Shown here one piece after another: positions 3,046 to 22,491 of a DNA stretch of 22,491 bases (its first letter is position 1; each line of letters starts with the position of its first letter). The notes under the pieces were generated by a model. That model was not told the DNA's origin, did no database searches, and saw nothing but the letters and a program-made list of their open reading frames with translations. The stretch is from a virus. Where the stretch lies: the IMG/VR virus record IMGVR_UViG_3300032047_000149, positions 1 to 22,491 of that record. One strand, given 5' to 3'. The translations under genes and the position numbers were made by a program.

Positions 3046-3510
3046 ATGAAGAGTGGAGTATATCTAGCAGGAAAAATGGAGCAAGCTTCTGTAGATGAGA
3101 TGAAAGTCTGGAGAACAAAAGCTACCGAAGATCTAAACGCGAATAATATAACCGTGTATGATCCAACAAGAAGAATACCTCTGCACACCCAGATACTAGG
3201 GCACTTAGAAGATGAAAGAAAGACCCTGGATGTGTGCAGGCGTATATTTAAATTAGACTTACAAGATATAGCTAATAGTACCGTTGTATTAGCTGATGTA
3301 AGACGCAATAACGTAGGGGCTATAGGTACAGGTACAGCTATGGAGTTAATGTTCGCTCATACTAAGAATAAGATTATTATACTATGGGCTAATTCTCATG
3401 AACCTATACATCCTTTTTTAGAATCAATAGCTACAGAAAAGACTTATAGTCTTGAAGATGCTTTAACCTCGGTAAAGGAGTATTTTGATGTTCACAGTGG
3501 AGAAGGATGA
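3046..3510 (+). CDS. Nucleoside 2-deoxyribosyltransferase-like protein
   Basis: This 154-residue protein shows the small Rossmann-like pattern of the nucleoside 2-deoxyribosyltransferase superfamily. The opening strand is VYLAG (5-9). A DP pair after the second strand (39-40) is followed by a helix ending in a 'TVVLADV' strand (79-85). Then comes GTGTAMELMFAH (95-105), where Glu100 aligns with the catalytic nucleophile of the family. The family cleaves or exchanges the N-glycosidic bond of deoxynucleosides or deoxynucleotides, serving salvage or the supply of altered nucleotides. Substrate cannot be read from sequence. An AAGGAG sits 7-8 bases upstream of the ATG. The next gene overlaps its 3' end by 23 bases. 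Confidence 0.7.
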   Translation: MKSGVYLAGKMEQASVDEMKVWRTKATEDLNANNITVYDPTRRIPLHTQILGHLEDERKTLDVCRRIFKLDLQDIANSTVVLADVRRNNVGAIGTGTAMELMFAHTKNKIIILWANSHEPIHPFLESIATEKTYSLEDALTSVKEYFDVHSGEG

Positions 3511-8776: not shown

Positions 8777-11197
8777 ATGAGTGGTATAGAAGAAGTAGCA
8801 AACTACCTCCGAGAGAGGGTAGAGAAAGTAAATCCTAATAATCCCAAGGCTAACTCAGGTGCTGTGCTTCTTAAGTTTTATTCTAAGTTTAACGAAGAGG
8901 CAGAGAAAGTAGTTGTTATGGCAACTGACATAATACAAGCTTTCTTTTCCAGAGACACCCGTGCTGTGCCAGCAGGTAAAGCTAAACTTACAGCTTTATC
9001 TACTAGAATAGGGTCAACAATAACTAAGTATATAACAAAAGAAAATTTATCTTGGCGTAATGAAATATGTTTAGGAGATTTAATGTTAGAAGCCTTCCTG
9101 CAGCGGGGCTATATAAAGATTTATAGGGACCCGGGTTTCTCTGAGCTAGATAAAGACGCACCTTTCATGGTCGAACCTACAAGCTATTGGGCTGAGATAA
9201 ATGTAATACCTGTGGCAGAAGACAAGGACGTTCTTATCGCGACAGAACACAACCAACCAAAGGAACTAAACAACCTATTCAGGGGCGGGAGGCCTATAAT
9301 TAAAGGTTGGGATGATGAACACGCTAAAGAGTTTAACCGACTATTGGATAAACCCTTTGTTAACGCAGCCAATAAGCTCGAACAACAAAAGTGGAAGATA
9401 AATAAAAAGATCTATGATGTAATTCAAACTAAATTGTTAGATATACTACCACATATACCTGATATGCCCGAAGAGGGTTCCAAGTTAGACCTTAAGAATG
9501 CTTACCGGGCAATGAAGAAAAGAGATACTAAGAAAACTAGAGATCGTTATAACAAGACCGCTGAACTCTGGAATAAAAAGCTTAATGTGCTCAGGTCCAT
9601 GTCTAAAACAAACGAGATAAGAATAACTTTACGTAAAGCAGAGGCTATGCTTAACTTAGAGGAATTCTACCAGACTATAGAGTTTGATTATCGAGGTCGT
9701 ATATATTATAGAGAACCTTTCTTAAACTACCAGGGTTCCGATATGGCAAGAGGTCTTATGATGTTTGCTGAGGGGGACCAACTTAACGAAGATGGTTTAG
9801 ACGCCCTTAAAATACATACTGCTAATTCATATAATCAGACTTACGATATTAACAGTATACCTAAGTGGGTAGAATGGAATTATAAGGAGCACTTAGAAAA
9901 AGAAGGATTAGACAATATATCGGTAGATAAAATGTCTCTTAACGATAGAATAATGTGGTGTGAAGAGAACGCTGATATGATTCTTATGACTGCCACCGAC
10001 GGTACTATACATGATTGTGAAAAGCCTTTCGTATTCTTAGCCTGTTGCTTTGAGTGGCAAGCTATTGAAGAAGATATTAATCATAAGGTGTGTATACCCT
10101 GCCCCATAGACGGTACGTGTAATGGTTACCAACACTCAGCTGCTATAGCTAAAGATGGTGATACGGGTCTGTACGTAGGCCTGGAGGATACAAGCATCCC
10201 CGTTGATCTTTATATACAAGTATCTAAATCATTATTAGACTCTGAGAAAAAGTTCTTTGAAGATAAAGGAATGAACTTATCTCAGATAAGGAAAGGAATA
10301 GCTAAGCGAGCCACTATGACGAGAGCTTACTCAGCTGGAGAAGAAACAATAGCAGACAGTATGTTCAGTGACCTATATCAATTTGGTTATGATACTAAGT
10401 TTAATATTTCTATGTTAGACTGCGAGTATCTAGCTAAGAAAATAGTAGAAGCTATTGGTAAGGTCTGCCCGGGAGGACAGAAAACAATGAAGTACTTACA
10501 GAACCTAGCAGCTTATGAGTTAGGTATCTTTACAGTATACGATAAAGATGGGAATGTAATTTCCCTTAACCAACGTAGAAAGGACTATGAGAAGGCGAAG
10601 AAGATGAGAGCACAGCTCAGAGAAGACCCCAACAATAAAGAGTTACTTCAAGAACTCAACCAGCTTTCTAATGATATGACTCAACGTACTAGCGTACTTG
10701 AACGAGGCAATGGTAGTAATCATATCACTTGGTCAGCCCCCTCAGGATTCCCAATAAGATATGAATCCTTTTTAACTAGAGCAGAAAAGTGTTTGTCTAC
10801 ACTCCGTGGAGTACAAGGTGGTCAGAAAGGCCAGCCAGGTAGAATCAGACACGTAGCGCAGGTATCCACTGAGCACGCAGATAAACGAGCGTTCGCAGCG
10901 GGTATATCACCTAACTACATTCATTCACAGGATGCTGCTCACATGGCTATAGTAATTAGTAGATGGAATAAAGCTTTCGGTGCAGTACACGACTCATTCT
11001 CTACTCACCCTAATAATATTAAAGAGCTCTCACAGTTAACACGAGACGTGTTTAGAGAGATGTACGAAAAAGATAATGTGTTTGAAGGTATAAAAACAAA
11101 TATACTATCTGATTCTAGTAAGTGTGATGTAGAAGTACCTGAAAATGGTGACTTAGAGATCGAGTTAGTCTCTGATTCTACTTACTTTTTTGCATGA
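8777..11197 (+). CDS. Single-subunit DNA-directed RNA polymerase (T7 gp1-like)
   Basis: The 806-residue enzyme carries DYRGR (304-308), motif A DGTCNGYQH (445-453), motif B K510 to Y518 with T7-like spacing of 8, NYIHSQDAAHM (713-723) and motif C HDSFSTHP (738-745). The C-terminus ends FFA, resembling the T7 'foot' FAFA. The Gly after the motif B Tyr in T7 (Tyr639-Gly640) is Ser519. Motifs A and B are about 30 residues closer than in T7. Motifs B and C are about 48 residues further apart because of a charged helical insertion at about 588-645, near where T7 keeps its specificity loop. Unlike T7, where it is gene 1, the gene is last of the replication genes. AGGAG lies 8 bases upstream. It probably transcribes middle or late genes from its own promoters. 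Confidence 0.95.
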   Translation: MSGIEEVANYLRERVEKVNPNNPKANSGAVLLKFYSKFNEEAEKVVVMATDIIQAFFSRDTRAVPAGKAKLTALSTRIGSTITKYITKENLSWRNEICLGDLMLEAFLQRGYIKIYRDPGFSELDKDAPFMVEPTSYWAEINVIPVAEDKDVLIATEHNQPKELNNLFRGGRPIIKGWDDEHAKEFNRLLDKPFVNAANKLEQQKWKINKKIYDVIQTKLLDILPHIPDMPEEGSKLDLKNAYRAMKKRDTKKTRDRYNKTAELWNKKLNVLRSMSKTNEIRITLRKAEAMLNLEEFYQTIEFDYRGRIYYREPFLNYQGSDMARGLMMFAEGDQLNEDGLDALKIHTANSYNQTYDINSIPKWVEWNYKEHLEKEGLDNISVDKMSLNDRIMWCEENADMILMTATDGTIHDCEKPFVFLACCFEWQAIEEDINHKVCIPCPIDGTCNGYQHSAAIAKDGDTGLYVGLEDTSIPVDLYIQVSKSLLDSEKKFFEDKGMNLSQIRKGIAKRATMTRAYSAGEETIADSMFSDLYQFGYDTKFNISMLDCEYLAKKIVEAIGKVCPGGQKTMKYLQNLAAYELGIFTVYDKDGNVISLNQRRKDYEKAKKMRAQLREDPNNKELLQELNQLSNDMTQRTSVLERGNGSNHITWSAPSGFPIRYESFLTRAEKCLSTLRGVQGGQKGQPGRIRHVAQVSTEHADKRAFAAGISPNYIHSQDAAHMAIVISRWNKAFGAVHDSFSTHPNNIKELSQLTRDVFREMYEKDNVFEGIKTNILSDSSKCDVEVPENGDLEIELVSDSTYFFA

Positions 11198-11726: not shown

Positions 11727-14700
11727 TTAATTACTCATATTATTACTAGGGCCTTTTTTATTATTAAACTCATCGTATAGAATTTCAGCGAGGCCTCTAA
11801 CTTTTCTTCCGTCATTAGCTATAGTTCCTCTAGCTATTCTTTCTAAATTTACTATATGTTTGTTAGGTTTATCGTTTTTAGCATAATCTCTATTATAACC
11901 ATATTTTATTAAGAACTTATACTCTTTGAAGTCACTTATACCTAAGTGTTCTCTTAGTATTTGTATTAAGTTTACAAACTGTTCTTTACTAACATATACA
12001 TTGCTTCTGTAAAAAGGATTATCGTTGACCCTAACGTCATCTAACCCTATATAACCGTTAGCTTTAGCTGCCGCAACAGTAGCTATATTTTTATCTAAAG
12101 CACTTAAATGAGTTTTTCTAATTGCACTCCTCTCTTTTTCAGTTTCAGAGAAGAAAGGGTCTAATTCTAAAGTTCTTCTGTATAACTCATCAAAAGTTTC
12201 TGTTAATGCATTATAAGAACTAAAAGTTTTACCGTCTGCTAAAAGAACATTTTGAGTTCCTATATTTACTTCATCCGTTCCACTAGTAGCTTTGCTTAAT
12301 GCTACATCAAACTTACCTAACATCTCTTCGAAGTAAGCATTGCCACCACTGTTAGGTACTTTACCCATCATTCTTTCCATAACAGCTTTAGGTGCTATAT
12401 TATTATAAGCGTTAGTCATAAATAAAACTGAATCAGCGCTCATTATAGAAGCGTCGTGTATGTTTATAATGTTTAGGATAGAATCAGGGTCTCCCGATTG
12501 AGCAAATAAAGTAGCTAAATTTATCATAGCACTATCGGAGTTTTGAATAGGTAAAACAGGTAAACCATTTTTAAGTTGGGTACCGCCCACACCTAAAGCT
12601 AAAGGCTCGTCTCTGTCTTTACCTGAATCGATAAAACGCTGTAGCTGAGCTAGTCTTGCTCTGTTGGTAGAAGAATCAGAAGCAGCTGCAGGGTCTTTCA
12701 TTAGTTTTAAATTAGGTACAGAGATATCTCCTACTTTTGTTGTCTCTATCCCCGCTAATTGATTAACTAGCTTTTGTCGTTTCCTTATAGGTAACCAAGT
12801 ATCAGCCCCTATATTAAAAGTAGTTCCTTCTAGTATGCCATTGTATTCTGTGTCAGCACGGAGAATAGCCATTACAGGAGCTAGAGCTCTCATGGCACTT
12901 TGATACCCACTTAACTCTGCAAGATGATTTTGTGCACCCATAGCGAATACATTAGACATGTCTTCGAATAATCTTTTCTTGGCAGCCGCTTGTCCTTTAG
13001 GTGTTCTAGGAAATTTACTTTCATAAAAGTCAGTTAATTTATTTGAGATATGTTCAGGGACAGTATTTAAAATTTCAGTAACTTCTGAGTACATCTTTAA
13101 AAAAGTTTTACCGTAGAGCCCTGCAACTAATGGTCTTCTAAATACAACCTTAGAAGCATTGAATCCATGATTGTTTTTTCCAAATAAAGATAAATCAATA
13201 AAGAATTGACCTACCGCGCCTTGAAAGCCTTCATTAATATCGTCTTGTGAATCTAAAGCTGCTAAAACATCTTTACCTACCTTATATTCTATTGACTTTG
13301 TTTCTGGTATTATAGAAGCTTCTACTACTCCAGAGTATAACTTCTCTCTTAAGTCTTTATAAGGAGGAACTGTAGTCTCTGGTAGCATACCTAGTATTTT
13401 AGCATTATCTATGCCTCCGAAAAACATACTAATGTTTGTAGCGTTAGATTGTTTACCGTCTTCTTCATACACAAAACTAAAACGATGAGGTAAACGATTT
13501 TTATCTGCTTCTGAGAACAAATGTGTATCCTCTAGTATACTGTAAGGATATTGCCACTCACCAGGGTTGTCTGTTAACATCTCTAGTATCTGAGGATCCA
13601 TATCTAATGTACCATCTGCTAACCTAGGAAAAGTAACAGTAGGCGTCCCATCAGTCTTTGATTGAGCTCTAAGTTTTAATTGTGAGTTTAATTCATCAAT
13701 TTTTTTACCTAACTCTAGGGCTTGACTCATCCTATCTATAGAATGTTCTATTGCTAGTCTAGGAAATCTATTAATATCGTACCTTCTTTGAGGTTCCATC
13801 CCGTCTACCGGAAATTCTTTTAACATAGTTTGACCTAAAGAATAATGATACCCAAGTATTAATCTATCTTGTTTAGAGAGAGACGCTATTTTTCTATGAA
13901 CATGTTCTCCAACTTTCCCCCCAGGCATAGTCTCTGCTGCTAAAAAAACTTGGTTAGCTAGCCTCTTAACTCTATTGTTATAAGCTGTACTATTAAATTT
14001 TTCATTTGAATCTAACACGATAGGGTCATTTACAAAAGCCATTACTGGCCTAGACATCTTTTTATCTAATTGAATATTACCTTCGTTTACTATAAACCAT
14101 CTGCCAGTAGCATCAGAAGCTTTAACACTGTAGAACCTTCTTTGCCCATCGGCGACTTTTTCTTTTGCTAATTCTAAATTTCTTCTTATATTATTTACTT
14201 TGTCTTCAATTATCCTATTAGCAAGCTGATCTTCTCTATCTTGTGAGGCTTCTTCCCATGTTGCCCCTTCAGGTACCTCTTCTGGGCTAACTAAAGGTGG
14301 TTTTTGATTACCAGCACTATCTGTTGTAGCATTACTTTTAAACCTATCAAAATCTCTTTTAGTTAATTCTCCTAGCGTACTAGCGAAAGGACTATCATAA
14401 TAAGATCCGGTAACTATTTTTTGTCCAGTAGATTTTTTAATATAAAAACTATTTTTTTGGTTAGCTAAAACGTCGTTAAACATAGCCTCTGCTACTAAAA
14501 CTCTATTTAAGTCTACTAAGTTAGGAACTTGACCTTGATGCTTGTAATAATTTTCTTGCACTTTAGCCATACGTTTACTTTGGTCTAATTTTCCCTGCTG
14601 TTTTAAAGCTCTTATGTAGGGTAAAGTATCCATAGCTATTTTATCTACTATAGGAGTAAAAGACATAGGGATATTAGTGTCAGCTCTACTGCTAGATAGA

Positions 14701-16151
14701 TAAGTTGACACTAAATTTTCGACTGGTACTCCCATGAAAATATTATTAGGCCCTTCAATAGGTATTGTTACACCGTTTTTATTTACACCTAGGTCTATAA
14801 CGCCCTGCTCAATTAAAAAATTAGCTATACCGGCCCCTACTATTCTAGAGTTAGCCTTTCCTGTATTGAAAAACTTCTCGTTGCCAGTTAACTCTTTAAG
14901 GTTACGGGTTATATCATCTATTAGAGCCCTAATAGAATTTTCAGATTTAAGATCAGCTAAAATAGTATTATACTTACTTTTATTTTCAGTAGTAGCTTGG
15001 ATAATGCCCTTTTCTCTTCTTTTTTTAATGGCGTCTTGAACGGCAAAGTCGTGGGATGCTTTAGCTAGAGAGTAAGTTTCTTCCTCTTCCCTATACTTTG
15101 GGCTATTTATATTTTGCTCTGTGTACTTAAAAGTTTTTATATTGTTTAAAGTCGCAGCAGCCGCTAACACCATAGACGAAGCAGCTTGTTGTAAGGCTGG
15201 AGTGTTTATCTCACCAGTTTCTGTTTTTATTGGTATACCTATGTTCGTTCGTAGCGCTTTTATAAATTCATTGTTACCTAAAGCAACACTAGGCACAGTA
15301 ACTTCCTCTCCGTTTTGAACAGTAGCTTCACCTACCATAGCCTTCATAAACCAGTCTGCTAAATTTTTAAAGTCTTTATAACGTGATCTCTCAAAGGCTA
15401 CTTGTTCTCTGAGCTGTCTAGTTGGCACATAACTTCCAGTGTTACTGTCGTAGTATAGTTCTCTTTTAGTATAGTATTTAGAAACAAAAGGACTCAACTC
15501 ATCGACAGCTATTTCTAAGTCTGCAGCTACATTTTCCTCTGTTTGCCCTTCGGCTGGGTACAGATTAAAAAGATTTGGGGGTATTATATCTCGCCCTTTT
15601 AACATTAGCTCTTGTTTTTGTTCAGGGGTTAAGCTCTGAAGTACACTAATATTAAAATTTTGCCTTTGAGTTTCGCTTAAAGCTTCGTACTCTCCTTTAG
15701 GTAATTGTGATTTAGCAAAGTCTTGGAAGTTTTGTACTATCCTAGTGTTATCTATACTATCAGTTTGAAAATCAAGAACACCCTTTTCGATATCTGCTTT
15801 TTCTTCTTTCTCTGCGATTAAATTTTGAGCCTGATTTAAAATTCTTTCTTTTTCTTCTCTTTCTTCTGTAGGTAACTCTGAAAGATCTTCTCCCGCTTTT
15901 TGTTGTGTTATTTCTACGAGTTCTTGAAAGTCGTAATCTTCAAGGGCCTCTTCAGCTGAAACAATAGGCATTACGGGGGCAAAGTCGTCTTCTATCTCGG
16001 TTACAGGCATCTTCATAGTTTCCACAATATTTTGTGTAGACCTAGTAGGCCCTTGAGTCTCTGCCGTTTTATCTTCTCTACCTAATGCTTTTCTTAATTG
16101 TGCTATTAAATCATTTTGTGAAGCTGGGTTCTGTATATTAGGTAGTACCAT
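11727..16151 (-). CDS. Predicted virion RNA polymerase, N4 vRNAP-like, divergent single-subunit RNAP
   Basis: This 1474-residue protein carries, in order, the motifs of the T7/N4 RNA polymerase superfamily. A DATGR element is at 680-684 (R684). Motif A EEDGKQSN is at 896-903 (D898). Motif B has K1001 and Y1013 followed by Gly, with VAGLYGK at 1009-1015. Motif C NIHDAS is at 1230-1235 (D1233), preceded by LPIQNSDSAM at 1200-1209. The Lys-to-Tyr distance is 12, as in N4 vRNAP (K666, Y678), not 8 as in T7. The motif A-to-Lys distance (103) is also close to N4 (107). About 680 N-terminal residues precede the core, including an acidic helical start (50-125). It is the last gene of the leftward virion operon, matching the N4 layout as I recall. 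An AAGGA precedes its ATG. I infer it is packaged and transcribes early genes after ejection. Confidence 0.75.
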   Translation of the reverse strand: MVLPNIQNPASQNDLIAQLRKALGREDKTAETQGPTRSTQNIVETMKMPVTEIEDDFAPVMPIVSAEEALEDYDFQELVEITQQKAGEDLSELPTEEREEKERILNQAQNLIAEKEEKADIEKGVLDFQTDSIDNTRIVQNFQDFAKSQLPKGEYEALSETQRQNFNISVLQSLTPEQKQELMLKGRDIIPPNLFNLYPAEGQTEENVAADLEIAVDELSPFVSKYYTKRELYYDSNTGSYVPTRQLREQVAFERSRYKDFKNLADWFMKAMVGEATVQNGEEVTVPSVALGNNEFIKALRTNIGIPIKTETGEINTPALQQAASSMVLAAAATLNNIKTFKYTEQNINSPKYREEEETYSLAKASHDFAVQDAIKKRREKGIIQATTENKSKYNTILADLKSENSIRALIDDITRNLKELTGNEKFFNTGKANSRIVGAGIANFLIEQGVIDLGVNKNGVTIPIEGPNNIFMGVPVENLVSTYLSSSRADTNIPMSFTPIVDKIAMDTLPYIRALKQQGKLDQSKRMAKVQENYYKHQGQVPNLVDLNRVLVAEAMFNDVLANQKNSFYIKKSTGQKIVTGSYYDSPFASTLGELTKRDFDRFKSNATTDSAGNQKPPLVSPEEVPEGATWEEASQDREDQLANRIIEDKVNNIRRNLELAKEKVADGQRRFYSVKASDATGRWFIVNEGNIQLDKKMSRPVMAFVNDPIVLDSNEKFNSTAYNNRVKRLANQVFLAAETMPGGKVGEHVHRKIASLSKQDRLILGYHYSLGQTMLKEFPVDGMEPQRRYDINRFPRLAIEHSIDRMSQALELGKKIDELNSQLKLRAQSKTDGTPTVTFPRLADGTLDMDPQILEMLTDNPGEWQYPYSILEDTHLFSEADKNRLPHRFSFVYEEDGKQSNATNISMFFGGIDNAKILGMLPETTVPPYKDLREKLYSGVVEASIIPETKSIEYKVGKDVLAALDSQDDINEGFQGAVGQFFIDLSLFGKNNHGFNASKVVFRRPLVAGLYGKTFLKMYSEVTEILNTVPEHISNKLTDFYESKFPRTPKGQAAAKKRLFEDMSNVFAMGAQNHLAELSGYQSAMRALAPVMAILRADTEYNGILEGTTFNIGADTWLPIRKRQKLVNQLAGIETTKVGDISVPNLKLMKDPAAASDSSTNRARLAQLQRFIDSGKDRDEPLALGVGGTQLKNGLPVLPIQNSDSAMINLATLFAQSGDPDSILNIINIHDASIMSADSVLFMTNAYNNIAPKAVMERMMGKVPNSGGNAYFEEMLGKFDVALSKATSGTDEVNIGTQNVLLADGKTFSSYNALTETFDELYRRTLELDPFFSETEKERSAIRKTHLSALDKNIATVAAAKANGYIGLDDVRVNDNPFYRSNVYVSKEQFVNLIQILREHLGISDFKEYKFLIKYGYNRDYAKNDKPNKHIVNLERIARGTIANDGRKVRGLAEILYDEFNNKKGPSNNMSN

Positions 16152-16154
16152 AAT

Positions 16155-19100
16155 TTATTCCTTATAAAAATTAATTAAGTCGGCATTAGCAAGAGCTTCC
16201 CGTGCTGGTTTAATTGAACCAATAAAAGGAGTATACTTAGCAACTCTTTCTTGTAAGTTCTCATCGCCTTTTTTAACGTTAGTATAAATAGCATTTAAAG
16301 AGGGAGATTGATTTACGATAGCCTCCCCTAAATTAGTAAGTATAGGTGTGTACATAGACTTTTCATTAAACCTATCTATAGCTTCTATCGCCATTCCCGG
16401 AGTACCTAACCAACCTGTATAAGAAGCAGCTCTAAACTCTTCAGTATCAATCCAATCAGGGTCTTCTCCTTCATCTAACCAAGGTGATTTTTCGCCGTAT
16501 ACCATTAAGTCTTTTAATAATTGAGACACCATAGCTAACCAGTAGGTACCCATTATCACGGAGAAGGTAGCGAATGTCATCCCTGGAGGCCCTCTTCTAA
16601 TATAATTTTGCCACACAGTAGGCATTATATTTGCTGTAAAAGTAGCCGCAAATCTTTTATATTGAGTAAACAAATAGAACCTAGGGTCTTCTATTAGCTT
16701 AGGGGCATCACCTTTCTTGGGTCTAACAGATAGCTCATCTGTAAAATTAGTTACACCTATTCTATACTGTTGTAGTAGCTTAACTTCTGCTGCATCCGAC
16801 TCTTCGTTCTTAGCCATAGTTTCAAATTGAGAGAGAGGAGTAGTTCTATATCTTTGTAAGATCTCTTTTTCTTTACCGTATAATCTTCTGACTCTATCTT
16901 CAACACTTCTTAGGCTTTGTTCAGACTTATTATCTAATTTATTGAAATAATCTACCAGAAAATCTACATCTAAACCATAACTGTTTAACATATCCCTGGA
17001 GTATCTACCCTGTTGAGTAACATTGCCTAAGATAAAATCATTATTCACATGCAGTATATGGTCTATTATTTTATCCCAAGCGAGAGCTCCTCTTCCTCCT
17101 CTGAAGGAAGCAGTTTGTTTTTCAACTTGATTTACAATATATAAAAGTTTAGTAGCTTTCTTGTAGGCTCCCGTTGAAGTGTTAGTGCTCTCTAAGGTAG
17201 CAGCGTCCGATCCAGTTACAACACCAGTCATAGCAACTCTGGTAAAGTCGTCATCACTTTTAACTAAATCTATTCTACTTTTAGGGGTAATTTTAGTGCC
17301 AGGAATTTTAGAGCCTATACTTTTCATCTCAGCAAGAGTAGCTCTACTGAACATACGAGCAGAAGTACTAACGGACCTCCACATTTGTCTAGGGGATAAA
17401 CCTATTAATCCAGTGCCAATTTCTGCCATATTAGCCCAGAAGTTAGTGTCCATGAAAGTAGCAGCGGAAAAGAATAACAGATTATCTTGTATGTACCGTG
17501 CTCTATTATCCTCTATTCTTTTATAATTACCTTGGTTCATATCGAGGTAATTGTTAACTACAAAAGCAATCCTACCTTTATCTTCCGCAGTAATTTCTCC
17601 AGCCTCATAAGCTTTCTCGATCATTTCAGCTGCGATATTACCTCTAGTTCCAAAGCGTTGAGCTGTAGAAATTCGTTTAGCGAAAGTGTTTAAGCTTTCT
17701 GCTACATTCTCGGCAGGTTTATTAGAAAGATATTTTTTAAATCCAGAGTTATTCTCAAACACACCTGCCTCTTCTAAACGAAGCCTATCTAAAGGAGAAA
17801 GAGTAGCATTTTTAATATCAGATACTATCTGTTGAGCTTTTTCTTCTGTAAATTTTACACGACCTTTAGCCCCAGGAGGAGGGTTGTATCCTCTAGTCTT
17901 TAAAAGTTTATCTATAAATTTTCTATCTTTAAATATATCTTGTTTAAAGTGTCTTGGCTTTAAAAAATAATCTTCTGTGATAGCGTCAGAAGATATACCT
18001 ATTCTTATACCCTTATCTTCCAAAGCTTTAACCTTCGCAGCCACTGTTAGCGCTAGTATCTTTAAATCTTGAACTACTTTTTCTAAAGGAGAGCCTGCCT
18101 CTATAGGTCTATTCACTTGTTCGTAGAATTCCCCTTTGTTTAACCCTACATTTTGATCGTAATCTCTAGGGCCAGGAGCATATAAGTGTAAATCGTTGTG
18201 TAACTGCTGGCTTAAAGAAGGCATAGATACACCTGAGTAAAGCCTTAAAGCGTCTAAAGAAGCTGCAAGGTTTTGCATGTGTATATTTATTTCGCCTTTA
18301 GCATTAACATAATAAGGTTTTAAAACTTTTTTAAAGGCTTCTACTGATCTCTTAGCTTGATCTAGCCCTGTGAACAAATTAAAAAACTCTCTGACATAAC
18401 CAGGGTTTTTAAATTTTCCTGCCATCTCTTGTAAAGACATAGGCTGCTTTTCTTTTCTTAGAGGAGTTACTTTCCCATCTACCTCTTTAAATTCTTTAGC
18501 AGCTCTAACTTTGTGATATTCATCAGCTACTTCTTCTAAAGTAAACTTTTTCCCTGCATTAGCCGGGTCTACTGTAATAGCCTTGTTAGGTCTATTCCTG
18601 GCATTCTCTTCCCACAGGGAAACTTCTGTTCTATCACTATCTGACTCAGGAGTAAACTCATACAATGCTCTATTAAAATCGTTTAGTTGTGAGAGAGTCT
18701 TAGGCAGAGTTATTCCGCCGCCCACACTAGCACCAATAGCAAAAGACTCTATCATCTTCAAAGCAGTATCTTCATAACTAAACTCTTGAGTAGGAGACCA
18801 AGCAGTAACCCCTATATCCTGAGTAAGCTCTTGTAGCGCTTCTGTACCGCCTTCCCATCCACCTCTTTTACCTATCTCTATCGCTAGATCCCTTATTGTT
18901 TTCTTCGCTACTAATTTTGCAGTAGCTTGGGCACCTAGTTCTGCACCTGTTTCTATTAAAATTTGCCGTATACTGTCATTAACTAAATTATTAGCATCAA
19001 TTATTATCTCTGCAGTTTGTTCAGTTAATTGTTCTGAAGTAAGATTAGGGTCTAAATCTTTAATTTTCTTTTGAACCATGAACTCTATTATTTCTTCTTT

Positions 19101-20393
19101 ACCTGCTTTAGTAAGTATATTAGCTGACCCAACAGAAGTCAATCCTTTTAAACCTAGCGCCTCAAAAGCAGCAATAGGTACCGCAATCCCAGCAGCAACT
19201 AAAGGGTCTCTTTCTTCTGGGGAAAAAGCCTGATAAACTTGAGATACTGCCATAATAAAAGAAGAACCCAAGGCCCCAGCTACCATTCCCGGAGGCCCTA
19301 GAATAAGTCCACCTCCAGCACTTGAGGCAGCTACTACGCCTAATTGAGGTGCATACTGTACTATACTATTGGAAATGAATCTCATTGCATCTAAAGGGTT
19401 TCTAACAGACCAAAAATCTGTGGTATAACCTGCATCTCGTATTCTTTCTGCATTATCTAAAGCCCAGTCATAACCCCAGGTATCTGCTTCTCCAGGGACG
19501 GCAAGGTCTCTAGCCCACTGAGAAAACCCTACAGCAGTATTTTCTAACATCCATAAACTTTTTTCTGCTGAGTTCCAAGTCTCTCCCCAATAACCTGGCT
19601 TGTCTTCTTTAGCATACCAGTCCCTAGCTTTGTTAGCTGTTACATAGTCTTCATTTAAGTTAGCAGAGTATTGAAGTACATCTCTATTTGCTTTTATTTC
19701 TTCTTCTAGTTCTTTTATTTTTTCTGGGTCTGTTTCTTTTATTAACTGAGCGTTTAACTTATTTATTTCCGATTGAAAAAAATTGTGTCTCTTATTTGGC
19801 TCAGGTTTGAGAGCATCCTCAAGCGATTCTCTTAAAAAGTCAGGCCTCATATTAGGCTTCTCGGTAAAAGTACCTCTAGATATTTGGTCTAATATTGCCC
19901 TTGCTTTATCTCCCGAAGACAACTCACTAGAAACAGACTTAAGGATATCTTCTTGTTCGCCTAATAGTCTCATAGTAAGTTGATCTTTAGACATCCATTT
20001 GTTAGCGCCTATAACTCTTTCTTGATGAAGATAATCGCTTAATAATTCCCCTTCTGGATTTTGCAAGTCCATAAGGCTTCTATCGTACTTATCTTTTTCT
20101 CTTGCTTTATTTATTAAAGTATCTCTACTAGCAGGAACTAAAGTATTAAAATTTTTTTCTCTAATAATATCGTTAATTAATTTTTTATGGTAAGGGCCCA
20201 TGTGACTTCCAGCATGGAAGGTTCCAAACTCATCTATCCTACTCATCTCCCCCGCGTCGAAGTAAGGAAGCCTAAAACTTTCTCCGTCAGGCCCTATAAT
20301 AGTATCACCATCGTACATATACATACTGCCTCTATCAGTTTCTACTGGCGCAGGGCTGTACAAGTCATTTAATTGATTTAAAAAGGTGCTCAT
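16155..20393 (-). CDS. Giant internal virion (ejection) protein with N-terminal SNase-like nuclease domain
   Basis: The first ~128 of 1412 residues match the staphylococcal nuclease fold: YDGDTI at 27-32 (D30), RLPYFDAGE at 41-49 (R41, D46, E49) and DKYDRSL at 101-107 (R105). These correspond to D21, R35, D40, E43 and R87 of the classical enzyme, with identical R-D-E spacing (5 and 3). An EGELLSDYLHQERV ending follows. Residues 345-415 are Gly/Ala-rich and hydrophobic (LGVVAASSAGGGLILG), as are 550-563 and 1272-1292, suggesting membrane-inserting segments. Charged helical stretches (200-240, 640-900) and a long helical C-terminus fill the rest. Size, order and membrane-like segments fit a DNA-ejection protein. 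No lytic transglycosylase motif was recognised. An AAGGAATAATT leader precedes the ATG, and the gene ends 3 bases from the next start. Confidence 0.7.
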   Translation of the reverse strand: MSTFLNQLNDLYSPAPVETDRGSMYMYDGDTIIGPDGESFRLPYFDAGEMSRIDEFGTFHAGSHMGPYHKKLINDIIREKNFNTLVPASRDTLINKAREKDKYDRSLMDLQNPEGELLSDYLHQERVIGANKWMSKDQLTMRLLGEQEDILKSVSSELSSGDKARAILDQISRGTFTEKPNMRPDFLRESLEDALKPEPNKRHNFFQSEINKLNAQLIKETDPEKIKELEEEIKANRDVLQYSANLNEDYVTANKARDWYAKEDKPGYWGETWNSAEKSLWMLENTAVGFSQWARDLAVPGEADTWGYDWALDNAERIRDAGYTTDFWSVRNPLDAMRFISNSIVQYAPQLGVVAASSAGGGLILGPPGMVAGALGSSFIMAVSQVYQAFSPEERDPLVAAGIAVPIAAFEALGLKGLTSVGSANILTKAGKEEIIEFMVQKKIKDLDPNLTSEQLTEQTAEIIIDANNLVNDSIRQILIETGAELGAQATAKLVAKKTIRDLAIEIGKRGGWEGGTEALQELTQDIGVTAWSPTQEFSYEDTALKMIESFAIGASVGGGITLPKTLSQLNDFNRALYEFTPESDSDRTEVSLWEENARNRPNKAITVDPANAGKKFTLEEVADEYHKVRAAKEFKEVDGKVTPLRKEKQPMSLQEMAGKFKNPGYVREFFNLFTGLDQAKRSVEAFKKVLKPYYVNAKGEINIHMQNLAASLDALRLYSGVSMPSLSQQLHNDLHLYAPGPRDYDQNVGLNKGEFYEQVNRPIEAGSPLEKVVQDLKILALTVAAKVKALEDKGIRIGISSDAITEDYFLKPRHFKQDIFKDRKFIDKLLKTRGYNPPPGAKGRVKFTEEKAQQIVSDIKNATLSPLDRLRLEEAGVFENNSGFKKYLSNKPAENVAESLNTFAKRISTAQRFGTRGNIAAEMIEKAYEAGEITAEDKGRIAFVVNNYLDMNQGNYKRIEDNRARYIQDNLLFFSAATFMDTNFWANMAEIGTGLIGLSPRQMWRSVSTSARMFSRATLAEMKSIGSKIPGTKITPKSRIDLVKSDDDFTRVAMTGVVTGSDAATLESTNTSTGAYKKATKLLYIVNQVEKQTASFRGGRGALAWDKIIDHILHVNNDFILGNVTQQGRYSRDMLNSYGLDVDFLVDYFNKLDNKSEQSLRSVEDRVRRLYGKEKEILQRYRTTPLSQFETMAKNEESDAAEVKLLQQYRIGVTNFTDELSVRPKKGDAPKLIEDPRFYLFTQYKRFAATFTANIMPTVWQNYIRRGPPGMTFATFSVIMGTYWLAMVSQLLKDLMVYGEKSPWLDEGEDPDWIDTEEFRAASYTGWLGTPGMAIEAIDRFNEKSMYTPILTNLGEAIVNQSPSLNAIYTNVKKGDENLQERVAKYTPFIGSIKPAREALANADLINFYKE

Positions 20394-20395
20394 AA

Positions 20396-22491
20396 TTATT
20401 CCTTTTCGAGGGCTATTTCTCCGTATCTAATAGCATAAAGTAAAGCAAAGAAAGGGTTAATTTTTTCAGAAGCTAATTCGACTGCGGATTTATTAACGCC
20501 TATAACTTCCCCTATAGTAGGCACAACAGTGTTAGGTGCTTTTTCTTTTTCTTCGTCTGTTAAACCTCTGCTAGGTAAACTAAAAATTCTTTCATTAGTT
20601 AAGTCATTAACAGAGAGACCTAACTTACCCATTATATTCTCTGCTGCTACGACTGTTTGTTGTGCCTCAACCATTTTATCTCTAGTATCTTTGCCTGGAT
20701 ATAATTTAAAGAAACTAGACATAGTTTGTTCATCTACTTTGGCAGATTTAAGTGGGTCTTTTATCATATCATCATCTAGTAGAGACATCTTAAGTCCTAT
20801 TTCTAAAGGAACACCTTCAGGTAAAGCATCTGACTCTATTAATCTGAAAGCTTTAGTTATAATATCCTCATTATTCTGAGGGTGAATTTTTTGATACTCT
20901 TTTAAAGCAGACACTAAATCATTAGGTGATTTAACCATATACTTCTCTAATCGTTTTACGTTATCTGCTTTTATTTGTTGAAGTGCGGTTAAACTGCCTG
21001 ACGTTGGGAAATCAAAAAGACTAGAGGCATATTTAGACATAGCAGCAGCATCATTAGTTAAGATATCTGTATTCATTTCCATGTATCTTTTCCCAACTCG
21101 GAATTGCCCAGTCTTATTACCAACAGCATCAACACCGTAGTAAACTCCAGGTTGTCCTTTTGCAGGAAATGCAACAAACAAAGCACCTGAACCTTTTTCT
21201 TTATCGTAAAAAGTTTTACCTTGCCCTTTGTTAAAATTGTAATCTATGTAATCGGCATCTGGTAACCTATTATTTGTATCAGCAATAGCGTTTTGAAGCG
21301 AACCTAATGTGTTCAAACCTGGAGCAGTAAGAGCCATTTTTAATATAGCACTAATTTTTTTCCTACCTTCTGTAGTGTAAGAAAATTTTGTATCATTGAA
21401 GTGTTGCTCTAAATCGTTTATACTTCTAGCTGCATTACTAGCGATAGAACCTTTAGCTGTAATTTGAGCTTTTTCTCTGGTTCTTACATCGTTTAATACT
21501 TGAGCGCCAGCCCAACGTAAAGAACCTGCATGAGAACCATCTGTTAATCTTCCTCCAGCATAATATAACAAGAATCTATAGGCATCCTTTTTATTAAAGC
21601 CTAAATTTTCTTCTATCCACTTCATAATGTTATTGCTAGATTTTTTACCATCTTTATCTTTACCGAGTTGCCCGCTTCTTTCTGAAACGTTTTTCATAAA
21701 GTCTTCGGCTATATTTTTCCCTGTGCCATTACTTAAAATTGCACCTGTTTTAGAAGATTCATCTAAAGCGAGTTGCATACCAGTAACAACGTCATAACCT
21801 CCTTGTTCATTTATTAACAGTTCATGTTTAAGGGTACCTTCTTTTGCGGGTTCATTTACCTTTTCTTGAATATAATTTTCAATGTCTCCTTCGGAGCGAA
21901 GCTGTATGGTATCATTTAATTTACCTGTTTTTGTTTCATTTCTTGGAGTAAGCATACGTTCTACAGCATCTAGTTGTACACCCCCCATAGCACCAGGTCG
22001 CCCATCAATGTTTTTAAAGGGAGAAGGAACATTGCCTAATCTAAGTTGTTCTTCTGTAGGCGAAGCTAAAACATCTTTAGAAAAAGTTTTACCCTGTTGT
22101 TCTTGAGCGTCTATTAACTGTGCTATATTAACAGGACTCATATCAGGATAATTTCTCCTTAAGTTTTCTATTTTTTGATTAAGAGGCATTTCTCTAAGCT
22201 CTTTAAAGTATTTTTTATCTCTTTGTTTAAGCTCGTTTAATGCATCTTTTCTTTTCATGTTTTCAGTTATGTTCGGAAAGGGTATTTCACTTGCAATAGC
22301 TTTATTCTTTTGATATTCAGAATCACCTGATAAAAGTTTTTCTACTTCCCTAGTTACGTAAGCATCATCTTCAGGGCCATAACCTCCCATAAGAGCCGGT
22401 ATAACGTAAGCATCATCTTTAGGGTTATAACCTCCCATAAGAGCCGGTATATTTATTAAATTATTATTTCCTAAGGCATAATTGCCAAGTA
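20396..22491 (-). CDS. Large virion-associated protein, N-terminus outside the window
   Basis: At least 697 residues are open on the minus strand to the window edge. An internal Met at 22438 gives 680 residues, but it has no Shine-Dalgarno and 17 in-frame codons without a stop precede it, so the real start is probably upstream. The visible N-terminus contains two copies of a 16-residue repeat (IPALMGGY.P.DDAYV). The rest is charged and mainly helical, with Gly-rich parts such as GGRLTDGSHAGSLRWAGAQ and GGYDVVTGMQLALDES. No known enzyme motif is identified. It lies first of the three visible genes of the leftward operon, directly before the 1412-residue protein, so an internal or tail-linked virion role is likely by position only. 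Confidence 0.6.
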   Translation of the reverse strand, partial: LGNYALGNNNLINIPALMGGYNPKDDAYVIPALMGGYGPEDDAYVTREVEKLLSGDSEYQKNKAIASEIPFPNITENMKRKDALNELKQRDKKYFKELREMPLNQKIENLRRNYPDMSPVNIAQLIDAQEQQGKTFSKDVLASPTEEQLRLGNVPSPFKNIDGRPGAMGGVQLDAVERMLTPRNETKTGKLNDTIQLRSEGDIENYIQEKVNEPAKEGTLKHELLINEQGGYDVVTGMQLALDESSKTGAILSNGTGKNIAEDFMKNVSERSGQLGKDKDGKKSSNNIMKWIEENLGFNKKDAYRFLLYYAGGRLTDGSHAGSLRWAGAQVLNDVRTREKAQITAKGSIASNAARSINDLEQHFNDTKFSYTTEGRKKISAILKMALTAPGLNTLGSLQNAIADTNNRLPDADYIDYNFNKGQGKTFYDKEKGSGALFVAFPAKGQPGVYYGVDAVGNKTGQFRVGKRYMEMNTDILTNDAAAMSKYASSLFDFPTSGSLTALQQIKADNVKRLEKYMVKSPNDLVSALKEYQKIHPQNNEDIITKAFRLIESDALPEGVPLEIGLKMSLLDDDMIKDPLKSAKVDEQTMSSFFKLYPGKDTRDKMVEAQQTVVAAENIMGKLGLSVNDLTNERIFSLPSRGLTDEEKEKAPNTVVPTIGEVIGVNKSAVELASEKINPFFALLYAIRYGEIALEKE
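22355..22450 (-). repeat. Two tandem 48-bp coding repeats
   Basis: Repeat one (22450-22403) and repeat two (22402-22355) encode IPALMGGYNPKDDAYV and IPALMGGYGPEDDAYV. They are nearly identical at DNA level, differing at only a few positions. More copies may lie upstream of the window edge. The unit is short, Gly/Tyr-containing and acidic, reminiscent of a flexible or binding segment, with no assigned function. Confidence 0.85.

Follow-up and report, generated by a model that had tools for sequence, protein, structure and literature searches.

A staphylococcal-nuclease-type domain at the N-terminus of a giant, probable ejection protein in a CRP-7-like podovirus lineage

Why would a phage place a nuclease at the front of a giant protein that probably enters the cell with its own genome? 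The question is raised by an IMG/VR virus record (IMGVR_UViG_3300032047_000149; 22,491 bases, analysed at full length and referred to here as the window). Its minus strand encodes a 1412-residue protein (16155..20393) that is a homolog of gp34 of Roseobacter phage CRP-7. A sequence-only reading of the window had proposed a staphylococcal nuclease (SNase)-like domain at 20010-20324, which corresponds to residues 24-128 of this open reading frame (residue numbers are those of the window protein), and had placed it on a probable internal virion protein. Our analysis bears out the identity of the N-terminal domain by its predicted fold, a profile-profile match and the conservation of its catalytic residues. 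We consider it a genuine, very probably active nuclease, carried by a giant protein held in the phage head until its ejection, and likely to cut nucleic acid that is not the phage's own. We give this reading a probability of roughly 0.6.

The domain covers ~residues 19-149 (19947..20339, minus strand), with a core of residues 24-130, and the motifs lie where they had been claimed. The translation reads D28-G-D30-T31, R41, D46-A-G-E49 and D101-K-Y-D-R105; the first arginine is followed at +5 by an aspartate and a further three residues on by a glutamate, the same spacing as R35/D40/E43 of SNase. The corresponding codons, all on the minus strand, are 20304..20306 for D30 (equivalent to SNase D21, a metal ligand, within the DGDT motif), 20271..20273 for R41 (R35), 20256..20258 for D46 (D40, a metal ligand), 20247..20249 for E49 (E43, the general base) and 20079..20081 for R105 (R87, in the motif KDKYDR). 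With the SNase/thermonuclease family PF00565 the domain thus shares DGDT and the equivalents of R35, D40, E43 and R87, as well as the predicted oligonucleotide/oligosaccharide-binding (OB) fold and a C-terminal "G...(S/N/G)...L" element. It differs in its low identity (~15-19 % in structural alignment) and in its attachment to ~1280 residues of phage protein, whereas SNase is small and usually secreted. In place of the D-T-P-E of SNase, the phage domains mostly have D-A-G-E, although one relative, L003, keeps DTPE.

The window protein alone finds no SNase match in Pfam, PHROG or PDB-sequence searches, which puts the assignment beyond the reach of ordinary annotation. The gathering cut-off of PF00565 is 21 bits; the window protein gives no match to this family, and the best of its relatives, the record of L003 with its textbook IDTPE, stays under the cut-off at 17.7 bits (E 1.3e-4). 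This reflects the limited sensitivity of single-sequence searches and does not speak against the fold. When eight phage N-termini are compared with six plasmid thermonucleases by hhalign, the profiles match with 96.9 % probability (E 2e-10) and the catalytic residues fall in register. A tblastn search of 7.3 Gb of plasmids with the L003 N-terminus gave matches in 19 records, none of them strong (E 0.3-10). The great majority are annotated "thermonuclease family protein", and the six thermonucleases of the hhalign profile come from these; one is a "putative nuclease" and one is unannotated. The meaningful match of an hmmsearch against PDB sequences is 2sob, a fragment of staphylococcal nuclease (E 0.0085). 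Designed "Cake" repeat proteins scored highest in that search and were discarded, because a single short motif, counted again in each of many repeats, accounts for their scores.

Structure prediction, which the sequence-only reading had proposed as a check, returned an SNase core. The AlphaFold model of residues 1-160, built from eight sequences (mean predicted local distance difference test score (pLDDT) 74, predicted template modelling score 0.67), confirms at the level of a model that ~residues 19-149 form an SNase OB-fold. Among the Foldseek matches listed from the PDB, staphylococcal nuclease appears throughout (best E 6e-4, probability 1.00), with modest template modelling scores of 0.33-0.48 when normalised by query length. 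VIA-align places model residues 19-149 on SNase residues 10-136 (Z 9.4, 3.4 Å over 118 residues). In a viral structure library the best match is A0A646QXC0, probably CRP-7 gp34 itself, as its length is the same (1368 residues); a phage thermonuclease homolog ranks second. The model is of moderate quality, and the case for SNase rests on structure, profiles and conservation agreeing. In the stretch 20063-20150 (minus strand, ~residues 82-110) the window protein has ~8 additional residues before KDKYDR relative to most of its relatives; model confidence is lowest there, with pLDDT <50 at residues 93-97.

CRP-7 gp34 (QBQ72827.1) is a full-length homolog in one isolated phage. It resembles the window protein in architecture over the full length, active site and gene order, although the identity is only 27 % (tblastn across almost the entire protein, E 9e-114), and it retains DGDT, the arginine, DAGE and DPYGR. 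Its annotation is "hypothetical protein", and no word beginning "nuclease" occurs in the text of the CRP-7 paper (PMC6918029). Further relatives were recruited from IMG/VR with an alignment of the window protein and gp34; scans with single full-length queries and a scan of genome contigs gave no new relatives, and the phage collection contained no close DNA-level relative of the window. D28, G29, D30, T31, R41, D46, E49 and R105 are kept in ten distinct homologs whose N-termini are complete, among them the window protein and gp34. Of 121 gap-free columns, no more than 15 are invariant across the ten, and these include all five catalytic residues, so the conservation that the sequence-only reading had called for is present. 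Random column placement would give this with P ~1.5e-5, a figure that treats the sequences as independent of phylogeny and serves only as a guide. Most relatives resemble the window protein more closely in the SNase region than in the rest; in L004, L005, L023 and L040, for example, identity is 47-54 % there and 26-42 % elsewhere. Every homolog with a complete N-terminus, all from the CRP-7-like podovirus lineage, has the domain joined to the giant protein of the late gene cluster.

Is this giant protein an ejection protein? Transmission electron microscopy shows CRP-7 to be short-tailed (PMC6918029). Its genes run in the order terminase, portal, scaffold, capsid, tail/fibre genes, gp35, gp34 (the SNase protein) and gp33, followed by a convergent RNA polymerase. 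The giant block of CRP-7 is also present in the window and in relatives; in the window it consists of three genes in succession on the minus strand, with the SNase protein in the middle. The downstream co-directional gene (11727..16151, minus strand) is the third of the block and encodes a 1474-residue homolog of CRP-7 gp33 (E 3e-49). The upstream co-directional gene (20396..22489, minus strand) has lost its 5' end at the contig end, and its N-terminal domain is therefore not readable there; the C-terminal part of its product is homologous to a 947-residue protein of L003 (29 % identity, 341 columns, E 1e-26). In four relatives, and in none of the others, a muralytic domain was detected on this upstream giant protein (L003:5034-7877, L004:293-3244, L001:16184-19855 and L006:4263-7844). 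At the protein's N-terminus L003 and L004 have an SLT lytic transglycosylase, and CRP-7 and L006 a lysozyme domain of the pesticin type. The muralytic domain appears to have been swapped on one body between lineages, while the neighbouring SNase domain stays.

The PHROG family phrog_6958, "virion structural protein", is matched by eight of nine records of SNase-protein relatives (best 2.5e-12), and the window protein contains hydrophobic segments at ~residues 363-421. T7 provides a precedent. Its gp14, gp15 and gp16 are large products of the late cluster, which exit the head and come to span the envelope. A lytic transglycosylase lies at the N-terminus of gp16, and we know of no nuclease domain in the gp14/gp15/gp16 set. 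In the window lineage, by contrast, it is the upstream neighbour that has the muralytic domain, and the SNase domain belongs to the middle protein. The T7 core proteins leave the head and are ejected (PMC11784390). From the late-cluster position in a short-tailed phage, the muralytic giant neighbour, the virion-structural PHROG family and the T7 precedent, we infer that the SNase giant protein is a probable internal virion or ejection protein of a T7-like set, an assignment that is well supported.

Under the preferred reading, the SNase protein would be the second of three ejection proteins, preceded by one that cuts peptidoglycan and followed by the downstream 1474-residue protein, with the middle member cutting nucleic acid. 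It would be stored in the phage head and exit through portal and tail together with its muralytic partner, ahead of or with the DNA. The ejected proteins may form or line a trans-envelope conduit, as do T7 gp14/gp15/gp16, and the SNase domain would arrive at the envelope pre-made, before phage gene expression. The likeliest targets at the entry site would be DNA or RNA of the host, or else other phages' DNA on its way through the periplasm. SNase requires millimolar Ca2+. Seawater Ca2+ reaches the periplasm, where it should be plentiful, and not the cytosol, so the domain, if it has the Ca2+ dependence assumed here from its family, would be active in the former rather than the latter. Some SNases use Mg2+ (PMC3585158), so activity in the cytosol may occur as well. 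The phage's own genome could escape cutting if the core sequesters the domain and the DNA travels inside a sealed conduit; alternatively, packaged DNA may be protected by an active site that is unfolded or inaccessible in the capsid. The complete picture for this podovirus group, of an SNase built into the ejection machine, silent in the capsid, kept from the genome by the conduit and acting in the periplasm as a Ca2+-dependent weapon against host nucleic acid or superinfecting DNA, is a tentative one that we hold at rather less than even odds.

Several observations weigh against this account. An active nuclease in a capsid bathed by seawater Ca2+ would need restraint. The match to phrog_6958 covers only part of the middle region, does not include the window protein itself and is also obtained once in a control genome, that of Bacillus subtilis. 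Pfam and PHROG searches revealed no sequence homology to T7 gp14/gp15/gp16 or to N4 proteins, and the model of the C-terminal 442 residues is of low confidence (pLDDT 48), too poor for a fold comparison. We found no proteomics or imaging that places the SNase giant protein in the virion. The earlier suggestion of an internal virion protein is supported in part, by position, size, neighbours and the PHROG match. Finally, a distant sister clade, reached through a C-terminal alignment (L046:4738-8499 and L048:5445-9206), keeps an SNase-like domain with a possible natural variant of the active site. Its members have DADT for DGDT, NARE with Asn at the D40 position, and one additional residue before the R87 equivalent. 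Judged from sequence, these changes may weaken or abolish activity, and some lineages may not need the fully active enzyme. An annotated Rhizobium thermonuclease likewise has Asn at the D40 position, which makes a loss of activity in this clade uncertain.

The altered clade would also fit a domain that now serves mainly to bind nucleic acid or as a structural part, as in Tudor-SN proteins, with catalysis irrelevant: the domain is kept while DGDT, the D40 equivalent and the loop before R87 change. However, every catalytic residue is retained in the ten other distinct homologs while most positions vary, and binding alone would not predict the preservation of that exact set, so we regard a mainly binding or structural role as unlikely. 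Another possibility is that the resemblance to SNase is a coincidence of motifs and that the N-terminal region is unrelated to the family. The empty single-sequence searches of Pfam, PHROG and the PDB and the sub-threshold scores of the relatives would fit this, but the predicted structure, the profile comparison by hhalign, the specificity of the tblastn matches and the conservation of the exact catalytic set agree independently. We reject the chance explanation as contradicted by structure, profiles and conservation, and consider its probability close to negligible.

If the nuclease is active, its substrate or place of action could still differ from that proposed. It might act on the phage's own DNA, nicking or trimming the incoming genome or clearing a jam in the tail or portal, and so aid entry, circularisation or early replication. 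A protein of this kind is expected, by inference from T7, to touch DNA in the core and conduit, and help with early replication has been suggested by Iyer et al. for the ParB-type nicking domains of injected polyvalent proteins (PMC5512222). Enzymes of the SNase type are non-specific, however, and nothing was seen that would restrict cutting to a specific site; we think such a role improbable. The protein might also not be ejected at all, being instead an external protein of the tail or one contacting the envelope, or a late intracellular protein, whose nuclease acts outside the cell on the DNA of biofilm or slime, or late in infection. SNase domains do occur on tail-type proteins, namely the BtI1 baseplate hub (PMC2147016) and MTATph1 CDS0032. 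Yet CRP-7 is short-tailed, and the hydrophobic segments, the muralytic giant neighbour and the position at the end of the cluster resemble those of internal virion proteins, which leaves this alternative, too, with a small share of the probability. We retain the reading of an ejected, probably active nuclease that would cut nucleic acid not belonging to the phage.

These two tail-type proteins bear on how new the fusion is. In BtI1, the homolog of the gp147 baseplate hub of Bacillus phage 0305phi8-36 has an SNase-related domain that was reported in 2007, its utility being called "obscure" (PMC2147016). As in the window lineage, the domain is N-terminal on a large virion protein, and it sits where a relative has a transglycosylase (PMC2147016). 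The protein itself, in contrast, is a baseplate hub of the myovirus type, encoded in a Bacillus phage-like region, and no podovirus ejection protein. CDS0032 of Moorella phage MTATph1 (WPA89519.1; L043:7881-14558, OR602862) is a 2225-residue protein annotated as an endolysin and encoded upstream of a baseplate wedge gene. Its SNase domain (residues 154-248) is recognized by PF00565 above the cut-off (4.8e-7). It is similar in being a giant phage protein with SNase near its N-terminus, but belongs to a 177-kb phage and has another body. Polyvalent proteins, which have been proposed to be virion-packaged, injected and multidomain, carry a DdrB-like ParB DNase domain and sometimes a lysozyme (PMC5512222). 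A search for their LPD38 domain (PF18857) gave no match, in the controls as well as in our proteins, and the Pfam scan listed none of the polyvalent-protein associates MPTase, ART or ParB. The PHROG family 8809 (2317 positions, giant, of unknown function) has an SNase-like stretch at ~1092-1244; we rejected it as the family of window-type proteins, as it does not match the phages studied.

The sequence-only reading held that this fusion is not known from any standard internal protein of T7 or N4, and our analysis did not contradict it, although BtI1, MTATph1 and the ParB-type injected proteins are precedents in a wider sense. SNase on a virion protein thus has forerunners, and we found no report of it on a podovirus ejection protein, which is weak evidence of novelty given that subscription journals were thinly covered. 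If the preferred reading is true, the virion holds a general DNA- and RNA-cutting enzyme beside its own genome, which raises the question of how a metal-dependent nuclease is kept off packaged DNA in a Ca2+-permeable capsid, and the SNase class would extend the set of enzymes presumed to be loaded in advance for infection. The clade with the altered site offers a natural comparison for whether activity matters. Domains of this kind can escape single-sequence annotation and require family profiles or structure to be found. Phages of the CRP-7 type are reported to be widespread in marine viromes (PMC6918029).

Convergent to the giant genes of the window are early and replication genes that encode a GIY-YIG endonuclease, a 5'-3' exonuclease, a Toprim-DnaB primase-helicase and a T7-type single-subunit RNA polymerase (8777..11197, plus strand; PF00940, 4.5e-56); the polymerase is convergent with the giant block in CRP-7 and relatives as well. 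Among the early genes, 3046-3510 encodes a nucleoside 2-deoxyribosyltransferase-like protein (PF05014, 1.3e-7). A gene for a DUF2201 metallopeptidase-like/VWA protein lies at 1-690, and CRP-7 gp07 is a MoxR ATPase, so phages of the window type may carry a MoxR-VWA pair. Near the opposite contig end, at 22340-22460 on the minus strand, the truncated upstream giant protein contains a short peptide repeat, PALMGGYNPKDDAYVIPALMGGYGPEDDAYV.
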